Program-made: the position numbers and the translations under genes
The notes under the pieces: model-generated
What the model saw: the letters and a program-made list of their open reading frames with translations, nothing else
The model's database searches: none
Told to the model about the DNA's origin: nothing
Shown here: positions 3,714 to 19,262 of the stretch, piece by piece
Position numbering within the stretch: position 1 is the stretch's first letter
How the letters are laid out: every line of letters starts with the position of its first letter
IMG/VR virus record: IMGVR_UViG_3300030060_003274
Span: 1 to 28,378 of that record
Source of the DNA: a virus
Length of the DNA: 28,378 bases
Direction: 5' to 3' (one strand)

Positions 3714-3743
3714 AAGGGTAGGTAAAAGTGCCTACCCTTTTTT
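3714..3743 (+). terminator. Rho-independent terminator after the capsid gene
   Basis: AAGGGTAGG (3714-3722) pairs perfectly with CCTACCCTT (3731-3739) across an 8-nt loop, and six Ts follow. It lies 22 bp before the tail tube start, so it either ends a capsid-dominated message or is partially read through to set the ratio of capsid to downstream products. Confidence 0.88.
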
Positions 3744-12548: not shown

Positions 12549-12610
12549 AAAAATTATTTGAATATATTTACACGCTTATAATCAATCTACTTTATGGAGG
12601 ACTTAATTAG
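12545..12610 (+). CDS. Possible 21-aa hydrophobic peptide
   Basis: Begins at an ATGA overlap with the preceding stop and ends inside the first codons of the DnaA-like gene. The peptide is mainly hydrophobic (MKKLFEYIYTLIINLLYGG). It could be a membrane peptide or simply a reading link that couples translation across the 45-bp gap. Length is too short to judge. Confidence 0.3.
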   Translation: MKKLFEYIYTLIINLLYGGLN

Positions 12611-12971
12611 AAAAGTGAAACATCACATACGAAAAGACGGACTAAAATCTAAATGCAGAAAGCCATATTACACACATCGAAGAATGTACCTGTTTAATCT
12701 TTTAAGAAACGCTGGTGTAACGTATAGCCGTATAGCTGAATTATTTGATTTAAACCACGCTACGATCATTCACGGTATAAAACGATATCAAAACCTTAAG
12801 CAGACCAGAGATGCGTTTTTATTGCTTGACATAGCAGATTACGATGGCAAGTTTAAACTACACAAACACGAATACAATTTGAAACGTGATATTCTAAAAG
12901 CTACTACAATAAGAGATTTAGAAATTATAAAAGGAAGAACAGAAAAAGAACTTTATAAAGAATTAATTTAA
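12594..12971 (+). CDS. DnaA domain IV-like DNA-binding protein
   Basis: A 125-aa protein. The central segment MYLFNLLRNAGVTYSRIAELFDLNHATIIHGIKRY (about residues 31-65) closely follows the DnaA C-terminal helix-turn-helix, where the DHTTVLHA-like signature becomes NHATIIHG. The ATPase part of DnaA is absent. Such stand-alone domains could bind DnaA boxes and direct host replication factors to the phage origin or compete with host DnaA. A basic N-terminus (KVKHHIRKDGLKSKCRK) may add DNA contacts. It is the last gene before a promoter/leader region and the replication genes. Confidence 0.78.
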   Translation: MEDLIRKVKHHIRKDGLKSKCRKPYYTHRRMYLFNLLRNAGVTYSRIAELFDLNHATIIHGIKRYQNLKQTRDAFLLLDIADYDGKFKLHKHEYNLKRDILKATTIRDLEIIKGRTEKELYKELI

Positions 12972-12979
12972 TATATTTG
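12972..12979 (+). promoter_or_regulatory. Bacteroidota-type -7 box before the leader RNA
   Basis: TATATTTG, fitting TAnnTTTG, immediately after the DnaA-like stop. Transcription would start near 12985-12987, right at the 5' arm of the predicted pseudoknot. No clear -33 box at the standard distance. Confidence 0.55.
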
Positions 12980-12985
12980 TAAAGT

Positions 12986-13060
12986 TGGTAGGACAATCGA
13001 ATTTTTTTAAGTGTGACGTTAGTAAGTGTTCCTACCCACCGAAAGCGTTACACTTTTTTT
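12986..13060 (+). ncRNA. Candidate leader RNA or small RNA with pseudoknot and terminator
   Basis: The 101-bp gap between the DnaA-like gene and the gene at 13073 holds a promoter box and a structured ~75-nt stretch. Stem A pairs GGTAGGA (12987-12993) with TCCTACC (13030-13036). Stem B pairs 13009-13020 with 13044-13055 (12 pairs, two G:T), and a seven-T run follows at 13054-13060. Because the 3' arm of stem A lies in the loop of stem B, the order is that of an H-type pseudoknot. Stem B with the T-run is a terminator, so the transcript would end before the coding region unless read through: attenuation or a free small RNA. Pairings are seen; function is inferred. Confidence 0.55.
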
Positions 13061-13072
13061 ATACCTTAATTT

Positions 13073-13639
13073 ATGGCAGAAAACAAGAAAAGCTTTTTAT
13101 TGTATTGTGATTTAATACACACCGTACAAAAATTAAACGATGATCAAGCTGGAAAGCTATTTAAACACGTTTTAGAGTATGTAAACGACTTGAATCCAGA
13201 AACCGATGACATACTACTACAAGTTTGTTTTGAACCAATTAAACAAAACTTAAAGCGTGACTTAAAAACTTACGAAAAGATGTGTAAAAAACGGAGTGAT
13301 GCTGGTAAAAAAGGAATGGCAAAACGATGGGGAAAAGATAACAAAGATAACAAGTGTTATAAACCGATAACAAAAATAACCGATAATGATAATGATAATG
13401 AGAAAGATATATATAGAAGCTTCGCACATTTGTCTATGAGTGTAGATCAGTTTAATAAATTAGAAGCTAAATACGATAAGAGTGTAATTGATTCGTGTTT
13501 AGATAGTATAGAGAACTTTAAAAACAACAACAAATACAAATCGTTATATTTGACTTGTAAGAATTGGTTAAAGAAAGAACCGAAGAAGGTAGAAGATAAA
13601 TTGGTAGCACAAGCAAAGAAGCACGGTTATGTTAAGTAA
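13073..13639 (+). CDS. DUF6291-like replication-initiation-type protein
   Basis: A 188-aa protein. The N-terminal 95 residues (SFLLYCDLIHTVQKLNDDQAG..., ...RSDAGKKGMAKRWG) match, from memory, the DUF6291 domain frequent before helicase genes in Bacteroidota phages. An Asn/Asp-rich linker follows (TDNDNDNEKD), then a C-terminal helical domain (DQFNKLEAKYDKSVIDSCL, LTCKNWLKKEP) that resembles DnaD/DnaT-type helicase-loader ends. It overlaps the ATPase gene by 11 bp. A role in loading the ATPase at the phage origin is likely but inferred. It is placed behind a terminator-bearing leader. Confidence 0.75.
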   Translation: MAENKKSFLLYCDLIHTVQKLNDDQAGKLFKHVLEYVNDLNPETDDILLQVCFEPIKQNLKRDLKTYEKMCKKRSDAGKKGMAKRWGKDNKDNKCYKPITKITDNDNDNEKDIYRSFAHLSMSVDQFNKLEAKYDKSVIDSCLDSIENFKNNNKYKSLYLTCKNWLKKEPKKVEDKLVAQAKKHGYVK

Positions 13640-14483
13640 AGGAATACACACTAAATATTTATTAGATTATAAACACGGAAGAATAAAACAAGGGTTGCCT
13701 ATTGGTTGTAAGTTAGATGACTTTGTAGTATTTAAACCTAAACAACTTAACATCATACTTGGTCACGATAATGTAGGTAAATCTTATTTCGTGTTTTGGT
13801 ACTTTTTAACACTTGCACTTAAGCACGATTTAAAGTTTTGTTTATGGGCTGGAGAAAACCAATACGGTCAGATAATGCGTGATATGATTCAGATGTATAC
13901 AGGAGTGCCTTTTAAAGAATTACACGATTCACAAATAAGAAGCTACTCAACACATCTTGAACAATACTTTGACTTTATAGACAATTCAAGACTATACACA
14001 CCAGAAGAACTTTTAGAAGCTTTTAAAAACACGGATGCAGATTGTTGTTTAATTGATCCGTTTACAGGTTTAAGCCGTGAGTATGGTTATGAAGGCAACT
14101 ACAAGTTTCTGAATATGGCACGACAATTTGTAAACGAAACAGGAAAAACAATATACATAAGTACACACCCAACAAGCGAAAGTGGTAGGCAAGGCAATTT
14201 GTTTCCTAAAGGTCATATGTGGGATGGACATTTAAAGCCACCAATGGCAGCTTACGTTGAAGGTGGTAAAAGCTTCTTAAATCGGTGTGATGATTTTATT
14301 ACGATTCACAGATTAGTAAAACACGAAACAATGAAATACGTTACTTTAGTAAGCATTGACAAAATTAAAGACCGTGATACAGGTGGCGAACAAACACTTT
14401 TAGAAGACTATATTTTTTGCGATTTTAATAGTGGTTTAGGTTTTGAATTGTACGGTGTAAACCCTTTAGAAAAATTAAGATAG
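13629..14483 (+). CDS. RecA/DnaB-fold ATPase (helicase-like)
   Basis: A 284-aa P-loop protein. Walker A is GHDNVGKS (residues 45-52) and Walker B is CLIDPF (140-145), followed by the ISTHP sensor-like strand (178-182). The CLWAGENQ segment after the first helix is typical of RecA-like/AAA_25 proteins that act as replicative helicases (DnaB C-terminal half, RepA). No primase or N-terminal helicase domain is present, so it may act with host helicase parts or as a minimal hexameric helicase. It overlaps the preceding replication protein gene and supports phage DNA replication. Confidence 0.8.
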   Translation: MLSKGIHTKYLLDYKHGRIKQGLPIGCKLDDFVVFKPKQLNIILGHDNVGKSYFVFWYFLTLALKHDLKFCLWAGENQYGQIMRDMIQMYTGVPFKELHDSQIRSYSTHLEQYFDFIDNSRLYTPEELLEAFKNTDADCCLIDPFTGLSREYGYEGNYKFLNMARQFVNETGKTIYISTHPTSESGRQGNLFPKGHMWDGHLKPPMAAYVEGGKSFLNRCDDFITIHRLVKHETMKYVTLVSIDKIKDRDTGGEQTLLEDYIFCDFNSGLGFELYGVNPLEKLR

Positions 14484-17997: not shown

Positions 17998-18597
17998 ATG
18001 AAAACAGAAAGGGTAAAGATTAGCAACGTAAAAACGAATCCAAACAATCCACGATTAATAAAAGACGATAAATTTAAAAAGCTTGTAAGGTCAATAAAGG
18101 AGTTTCCAGAGATGTTACAAATAAGACCAATAGTTGTAGATAAAGACAATATTGTACTCGGTGGAAATATGAGATTAAGGGCTTGTAAAGAAGCTGGATT
18201 AAAAGAAGTTTATATAGTCAAAGCAGACCAACTTACAGAGAAACAACAAAGAGAATTTATTATAAAAGATAATGTTGGGTTTGGAGAATGGGACTGGGAT
18301 GATTTAGCAAACGAATGGGATGTAGATGAGTTAGAAGATTGGGGTTTAGATTTACCTGTTTACATAGAGGATAGTGATGAGTTTGGAACTGACTTTAGTT
18401 TAGCAGATGGAGAAAAAGAACCATTTCAACAAATGACTTTTACTTTAGCAGATGAACAGGCAGAGCAAATTAAAAACGCAATAACAGATATTAAGCAAAC
18501 AGAAGAATATAAATACTGCGAAACTATGGGCAACGAAAACACGAATGGAAATGCTTTATATTTAATTATTATGCAATGGGCAGAGCAAAGGAAATAA
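17998..18597 (+). CDS. ParB/Srx-domain protein
   Basis: A 199-aa protein. Residues 1 to about 100 match the ParB N-terminal (ParB/sulfiredoxin-like) fold: VKTNPNNPRLIKDDKFKKLVRSIKEF, a central IVVDKDNIVLGGNMRLRACKEAGLKEV with the GGxxRxxA nucleotide-binding motif, and LTEKQQREFIIKDN. A segment with WDWDDLANEWDVDELEDWGLDLP follows, typical of ParB-domain proteins linked to phage DNA methyltransferases. The remaining C-terminal 80 residues are unassigned. It overlaps the Mom-like gene by 22 bp, so the two are likely translated together. A DNA-modification or nuclease partner role is likely. Confidence 0.85.
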   Translation: MKTERVKISNVKTNPNNPRLIKDDKFKKLVRSIKEFPEMLQIRPIVVDKDNIVLGGNMRLRACKEAGLKEVYIVKADQLTEKQQREFIIKDNVGFGEWDWDDLANEWDVDELEDWGLDLPVYIEDSDEFGTDFSLADGEKEPFQQMTFTLADEQAEQIKNAITDIKQTEEYKYCETMGNENTNGNALYLIIMQWAEQRK

Positions 18598-19262
18598 TTG
18601 TAAAGGTAATACCAAGTAAAATAGCTAATGAGTTTGTAAAAAAGCATCATTACTCTGGTAAGGTTGTGCCAAATAGTACATTGCACTTTGGCTGCTTTTT
18701 AGATAATAAACTTCACGGAGTTATGCAATATGGAAGTCCGTTTATGAAAACCAAAGTGCTTTCATTAGTTCATAATACAGGTTGGAATGAAATGCTGGAA
18801 CTAAACAGAATGGCTTTTGATAATTACTTGCCCAAGTATTCAGAAAGCAGATGTATTGCAATTAGCATTAAACTTATTAAAAAAAACGCACCACAAATAA
18901 AATGGATATTGTCATTTGCAGACGGCACACAATGTGGAGATGGCACAATATATAGGGCAAGTGGCTTTGTTTTAACGTCTATTAAACAAAACAACTCTAT
19001 TATAAAATTATCAAATGGCAATATAGTTGCAGCTATGACATATACAAAAGGTAAAAATATTTTAAAACAGGGTGGCAGAGCTGGGATACCAAAAAATGCA
19101 GAAAAATTAAAAGGAAATATGTTTAGATATATTTATTTAATAGATAAGAATTGTAAAATTAACACAGAAATTTTACCGTTTAGCGAAATAGACAAACAAG
19201 ATGCTGGAATGTATAAAGGCAAAAAAATAAGTTTAAGTGAAAGAAATAGAGCGCAGCAATAG
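18576..19262 (+). CDS. Mom-like DNA modification protein
   Basis: A 228-aa protein with the conserved segments of the phage Mu Mom family: FVKKHHYSG (20-28), FGCFLDNKLHGVMQYGSP (38-55), MLELNRMAFDNYLPKYSESR (73-92), WILSFADGTQCGDGTIYRASGF (110-131). Mom converts adenines of phage DNA into N6-carbamoylmethyl-adenine, protecting it from restriction. The fold is GNAT-like. The gene is AT-richer than its neighbours and its 3' end overlaps a tRNA-like element on the other strand. Its start is inside the ParB-domain gene. Members of this family are found near ParB and terminase genes in other phages, from memory. Confidence 0.82.
   Translation: MGRAKEIIVKVIPSKIANEFVKKHHYSGKVVPNSTLHFGCFLDNKLHGVMQYGSPFMKTKVLSLVHNTGWNEMLELNRMAFDNYLPKYSESRCIAISIKLIKKNAPQIKWILSFADGTQCGDGTIYRASGFVLTSIKQNNSIIKLSNGNIVAAMTYTKGKNILKQGGRAGIPKNAEKLKGNMFRYIYLIDKNCKINTEILPFSEIDKQDAGMYKGKKISLSERNRAQQ

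Follow-up and report, generated by a model that had tools for sequence, protein, structure and literature searches.

A predicted pseudoknotted leader RNA with a built-in terminator at the head of a phage replication operon, probably setting the expression of that operon, and its relatives in Bacteroidota phages

How phages of Bacteroidota control their transcription is, to our knowledge, poorly understood. The window analysed here, a stretch of 28,378 nucleotides (positions 1 to 28,378 of IMG/VR virus record IMGVR_UViG_3300030060_003274), belongs to a flavobacterial-type phage and raises a question in this respect: what is made from the short interval that separates the stop codon of a DnaA-like gene from the first gene of the replication operon, given that this interval holds a promoter box, two interleaved pairings and a run of Ts? 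An earlier sequence-only reading had offered an attenuator controlling replication or a stable small RNA as possible answers. We compared the interval with its counterparts in related and unrelated phages, and the resulting layout is given in Table 1.

The elements first proposed are confirmed, with refinements. The box TATATTTG directly abuts the stop codon of the DnaA-like gene, stem A (GGTAGGA with TCCTACC in the window) lies at 12987-12993 and 13030-13036 with 7 bp, the two stems interleave in the order of an H-type pseudoknot, and the seven Ts end at 13060, leaving 12 bases before the ATG at 13073. For stem B the coordinates 13009-13020 and 13044-13055 stand, but its innermost pair, 13020:13044, lacks conservation and falls within an internal loop, so the stem has 11 bp. 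The transcription start, formerly put near 12986, is now predicted at 12984, the first base of a possible 5' hairpin P0, because the -7 box of the flavobacterial sigma-A has been reported to span -12 to -5 (PMC9723704). Sequence, covariation and RNAalifold together place a hairpin with a U run between the promoter box and the first gene, which is the arrangement of an attenuator. Simple promoter and terminator scans of the window listed neither the box nor the terminator; the latter was missed because the scan allows loops of up to 8 nt, as against the 23 nt found here. Folded as a single sequence the leader is unremarkable (z -1.09), and therefore the case rests on comparison.

Table 1. Layout of the leader and of the genes around it in the window.
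Feature	Position	Strand	Basis
Upstream gene, DnaA C-terminal-like HTH, outside the module	12594-12971	+	Pfam 9.5e-6, under the curated cut-off
-7 promoter box TAnnTTTG (TATATTTG)	12972-12979	+	sequence; abuts TAA 12969-12971 of the DnaA_C-like gene
Predicted transcription start	12984	+	predicted from a box at -12 to -5 (PMC9723704)
Possible 5' hairpin P0: GUUG 12984-12987 / CAAU 12994-12997, loop GUAGGA	12984-12997	+	weak
P1 5' arm (P1a, stem A), GGUAGGA	12987-12993	+	covariation
Spacer, A/U rich	12998-13008	+	sequence
P2 5' arm (stem B, terminator stem)	13009-13019	+	covariation; RNAalifold
Internal loop strand 1, U-AGUA	13020-13024	+	AGUA columns invariant
P3 5' arm, GUG	13026-13028	+	covariation; fourth pair 13025:13040 in many relatives
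P1 3' arm (P1b, stem A), UCCUACC, inside the terminator loop	13030-13036	+	covariation
P3 3' arm, CAC	13037-13039	+	covariation
Internal loop strand 2, GAAA	13041-13044	+	invariant
P2 3' arm (terminator stem)	13045-13055	+	covariation
U run of the intrinsic terminator, seven T	13054-13060	+	first two bases also paired in P2
First replication-operon gene, DUF6291 (PF19808)	13073-13639	+	Pfam 2.2e-24; distant PHROGs matches to primosomal/replisome-organizer proteins
Second gene, primase/helicase- and DnaB-like	13629-14483	+	PHROGs 1.9e-15

Relatives were collected by scanning IMG/VR with the DUF6291 protein, which yielded 80 loci, most of which carry the same promoter and RNA upstream of the gene; a pattern scan added more. 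Covariation of both stems in related phages had been named as a check, and compensatory changes are indeed found in both. In an alignment of 28 distinct leaders of the window's family (family A, alignment A1), 93.7% of the cells are paired, 14 of the 22 pairs are changed on both sides and 76 cells are doubly changed; none of 500 shuffles gave as good a covariation score, and sliding the partner by one to three columns as a control left at most 9 doubly changed cells. Changes on both sides affect four of seven pairs in P1 (93.9% of cells paired), six of eleven in P2 (94.8%) and all four in P3, a stem of 3-4 bp. P1 thereby occurs as GGTAGGA/TCCTACC, GGTCGGA/TCCGACC, GCTGGGA/TCCCAGC and GGCGGGA/TCCCGCC, and P3 as GTG/CAC, GAG/CTC, GGCT/AGCC and GGAA/TTCC, and the RNAalifold consensus recovers P2 and P3 independently and unprompted. 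Between these two stems the unpaired letters AGUA, facing GAAA, are invariant throughout the family, as is an AAT on the spacer side; the AGUA/GAAA loop bears a resemblance, and a resemblance only, to a loop E or bulged-G module. P0 is not supported by covariation in this family and has a C-A mismatch in about one third of the A1 rows. A U run of six Ts or more remains in 59 of the 61 distinct leaders of family A. Two leaders (L099 and L114), located about 90 bases before the ATG of another gene family, keep the structure with P3 as GGGG/CCCC and have the U run replaced, which hints at a role beyond termination.

A wider search, begun from a protein of Cellulophaga phage phi13:2, revealed the same plan in leaders of unrelated sequence: a TAnnTTTG box, a 5' hairpin (P0), the terminator hairpin (P2/P3), a U run and then the gene, with the P0 loop (P1a) pairing with the terminator loop (P1b) over 6-13 bp. 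In one such group (family B, alignment A3, 11 leaders), 93.4% of the cells are paired, 21 of 28 pairs are changed on both sides and no shuffle out of 500 did as well; covariation here covers P0, P1, P2 and P3, and RNAalifold recovers P0, P2 and P3 exactly. As P1a lies inside the loop of P0 in leaders of this type, the contact is a kissing loop. When 15 unlike leaders were segmented by hand, all 15 had the same order of parts and 13 had P1a inside the P0 loop. Cultured phages with this architecture include Cellulophaga phages phi13:2 and phi19:3, Flavobacterium phages 11b, lillamy9-1, tooticki6-1, hattifnatt9-1 and elemoC, and Olleya phage Harreka_1. The sequence-only reading had missed P3, the invariant loop next to it, the form with a 5' hairpin and a kissing loop that occurs in other families, and the wide spread of the RNA. 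A leader of the same kind, with a 9-bp P1 and a perfect 18-bp P2, was also seen together with a DUF6291 gene in one genome drawn from the set of Bacteroidota genomes, upstream of 1483 in that locus (L353).

A descriptor that combines the promoter box, the terminator stem and the U run with a set strength of P1 was applied to 2.10 Mb of loci and found 210 matches (58 distinct leaders) as against 2 in dinucleotide-shuffled copies, although this count is uninformative on the frequency in phages at large because the loci were mostly chosen for DUF6291. Among DUF6291 loci with enough upstream DNA, a match lies within 1.5 kb in at least 60 of 69 and at least 34 of 68, both being lower bounds because loci that the descriptor missed (L052, L282, L292 and L338) are clearly positive by eye. 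The window and the genomes of 11b and lillamy hold exactly one match each. The architecture was not convincingly found in phage 6H or in the first 50 kb of either Cellulophaga phi14:2 or Bacteroides crAss001. Visual inspection did not reveal it ahead of DUF6291 in Riemerella RAP44, one Vibrio phage and one Shewanella phage either, and it is therefore not universal. In genome contigs the family-A pattern gave 25 matches, which were taken as chance, the stems being absent by eye. A covariance model (R1) run without a positive control had no match in 394 Bacteroidota genomes, a negative that carries no weight, and DUF6291 is itself rare in genomes (3 of 395). Among contigs that were fetched through a chance match to the pattern, four (L139, L148, L149 and L164) show the architecture as GCGGAAC/GTTCCGC across AATAAGCCCTGG/CCGGGACTTATT, immediately 5' of an unrelated gene of 231-365 aa.

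The gene order after DUF6291 is a helicase-like gene, then NinG and then ERF. Upstream of the leader, other genes replace the DnaA_C-like gene in relatives, and the promoter, the RNA and the gene behind it stay together as a unit; the promoter box is kept in nearly all relatives despite the changing upstream gene. In leaders adjacent to DUF6291, the gene starts about 7-24 bases past the terminator stem; a distance of 12-23 bases is usual. The first genes found behind the leader comprise DUF6291, a MNILKKAN.. family (L207-L211 and L150) that we take to be DUF6378, HNH-like endonucleases, small ORFs and others, and the operons that it heads are replication, early or nucleotide operons. Given several different first genes and a varying upstream gene, the RNA is tied to the head of the operon and not to one gene, which bears out the association with replication genes proposed at the outset, and the variety of first genes suggests control at the level of the operon. 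In many Bacteroidota phages, cultured ones included, the leader is a marker of where the replication or early operon begins.

On the evidence of sequence comparison, we favour, with a probability of about 0.55, the reading of the leader RNA as an attenuator that acts in cis on the phage replication operon, whose expression level it probably sets. The sequences themselves show the pairings with their conservation, the U run and the position of the leader; we infer the transcript start, the transcript end and regulated read-through. Transcription would begin at about 12984, and P1a would pair with the loop of the P2/P3 hairpin, itself the intrinsic terminator. The majority of transcripts would stop at about 13060, giving a knotted RNA of 75-77 nt. 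The DUF6291-led operon would then be expressed from the leader promoter only by read-through transcripts, since the 12 bases from the U run to the ATG show no further promoter. The ratio of termination to read-through would be altered by some factor, be it a protein of the phage or the host, a ligand or a further copy of the RNA. In folds of growing transcripts, P1 appears at nt 53-68, ahead of the 3' arm of P2, and P2 dominates afterwards. Since P1 is able to form while the 3' arm of the terminator has yet to be transcribed, control is likely to be exerted at the P1 contact jointly with the AGUA/GAAA loop. The leader does not look like a classical either/or attenuator, as P1 and P2 are compatible and no mutually exclusive antiterminator is apparent; the P1 contact may instead adjust the efficiency of termination or offer a binding surface for a partner. 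This compatibility and the loss of the U run in L099 and L114 were weighed against the attenuator. A functional small RNA could just as well arise from this stretch, and the original pair of choices, attenuator or stable small RNA, remains the right one. The leader offers a handle on the timing of replication in Bacteroidota phages.

Several known systems resemble the attenuator reading in part. Lambda 6S RNA at tR' with Q antitermination and HK022 put are short terminated leader RNAs of phage operons opened by read-through; their structures are unrelated to that of the leader described here, for which no antiterminator was identified. The leader of T4 gene 32 places a pseudoknot before a phage replication gene, but serves translational autoregulation by gp32, and its knot, unlike the present one, has no intrinsic terminator. 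In the cobalamin riboswitch, the loop of an upstream domain contacts the hairpin loop of the expression platform as a kissing loop (L5-L13), whereas the leader has two hairpins only, with neither the cobalamin core nor an Rfam match. As a regulatory geometry, a terminator whose loop is recognised by the 5' end of its own RNA is unusual.

The main rival reading, which is more tentative, is that the leader acts in trans as a self-complementary regulatory RNA. The terminated RNA of 75-95 nt would accumulate with the number of phage genomes. Its P1b or P1a would base-pair either with freshly made leaders or with the ribosome-binding region on the read-through mRNA, and the replication operon would thereby be held back or switched on in the manner of P4 CI RNA, P1/P7 c4 and Gifsy-1 IsrK. 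As in those systems, a segment of the RNA is complementary to an upstream site in its own transcript (P1a/P1b); the self-complementarity on the sense strand and the loop-loop geometry would suit such a role, and the loop sequences of close relatives differ in lockstep, as specificity groups would. The window's family shows no further complementary site downstream, whether at the controlled gene or ahead of it (P1a repeat before the ATG, p 0.64), and the intramolecular contact should compete with pairing in trans. P1a is, however, repeated just before the ATG and tracks the changes of P1b in a subgroup of seven loci (L267, L302, L282, L286, L288, L306 and L338), as GTTGCAG, GTCGCAG, AGGCAG, AAGCAG or CCACTA(C), with p values from 0 to 0.088 that amount to moderate evidence, since some of these loci are related. 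P1b of this subgroup could cover the ribosome-binding region or kiss P1a, not both at once. In the last 160 bases before 2001 of L338, P1 has 13 bp and a third copy, CCACTACAC, stands right at the ATG, the most striking case of a possible pairing between loop and ribosome-binding site. P1a has no other sense-strand occurrence in the window or in the genomes of 11b and lillamy, and therefore any target in trans within the phage would be the leader itself.

The P1/P7 c4 antisense RNA resembles the leader in its complementarity to an upstream site and, where family C is concerned, to a site before the next gene. P4 CI (PMC4825925) is comparable in that a sense-strand segment (seqA/seqC) is complementary to an upstream site, here P1a, and, in family C, also to one immediately ahead of the next gene; CI is, however, processed from a longer transcript, and the window's family is without the downstream site. 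Gifsy-1 IsrK, a short prophage leader RNA with a terminator, some of whose transcripts read into the downstream phage genes, can act on its own read-through mRNA (PMC4825925), but it has no sequence or Rfam match to the leader and comes from another host phylum; the contact here joins the 5' end to the terminator loop, and action in trans is only a candidate feature. It can be speculated that Bacteroidota phages carry a widespread, undescribed class of RNA, self-complementary on the sense strand, whose 5' hairpin loop and terminator loop recognise each other in cis and in trans as a control of replication dose or superinfection immunity with loop-defined specificity groups. If the leader does act in trans, it would represent a possible RNA-based immunity in Bacteroidota, where we found none described.

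It is unlikely, in our view, that the leader is an aptamer-type switch, in which P1, P3 and the AGUA/GAAA loop would form a pocket, and a small molecule or protein bound there would either stabilise the terminator or open it. The unpaired AGUA, GAAA and AAT are invariant in family A and the AGUA/GAA core recurs in 11b, Harreka and family C, yet family B, the Cellulophaga phages, L063 and elemoC keep the architecture without this loop, the genes behind the leader point to no single metabolite, and no Rfam riboswitch matches. No family of Rfam 15 matches the window or the related loci, and low-threshold scans of the leader and the cultured phages gave chance-level matches only. The AGUAGG..CCGAA of the leader recalls what we take to be a feature of the glutamine riboswitch, which is absent from the output of the low-threshold scan. 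A type III toxin-antitoxin pseudoknot was rejected, as a replication protein is encoded downstream and the leader consists of a single unit with no repeat array. The retention of the architecture in sequences altered beyond recognition would account for the failure of sequence and covariance-model libraries to pick up this RNA. A literature search, with most subscription papers outside its coverage, found no description of it.

We regard it as improbable that the leader is a stable small RNA which has an unrelated job, such as that of a host-protein decoy, and only its promoter region in common with the operon. Its own promoter and terminator, its compact shape of two hairpins and, in several families, a 5' end in or near a hairpin would fit such an RNA, but in the genuine family-A matches and in nearly all other leaders it directly precedes a gene with no further visible promoter, and no free-standing copy was seen, though most loci were gene-selected. 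An ordinary terminator with chance complementarity, with which the unexceptional fold energy would agree, is refuted by the covariation in two unlike families and by the descriptor scan.

Base pairing of the leader with the capsid terminator through the heptamer CCTACCC, which the sequence-only reading had thought conceivable, finds no support, and the shared heptamer is put down to chance: about one match to a heptamer is expected at random, and only one relative out of eight carries the hairpin, which several others lack although they have the same stem A. The site at 3716-3737 of the window is an ordinary intrinsic terminator behind a virion gene (GGGTAGG-N8-CCTACCC-T6), CCTACCC being one arm of its hairpin. 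Elsewhere in the window, the phage encodes a Mu-Mom-type DNA modification protein at 18576-19259 on the + strand (Pfam Mom PF25680, 7e-53).
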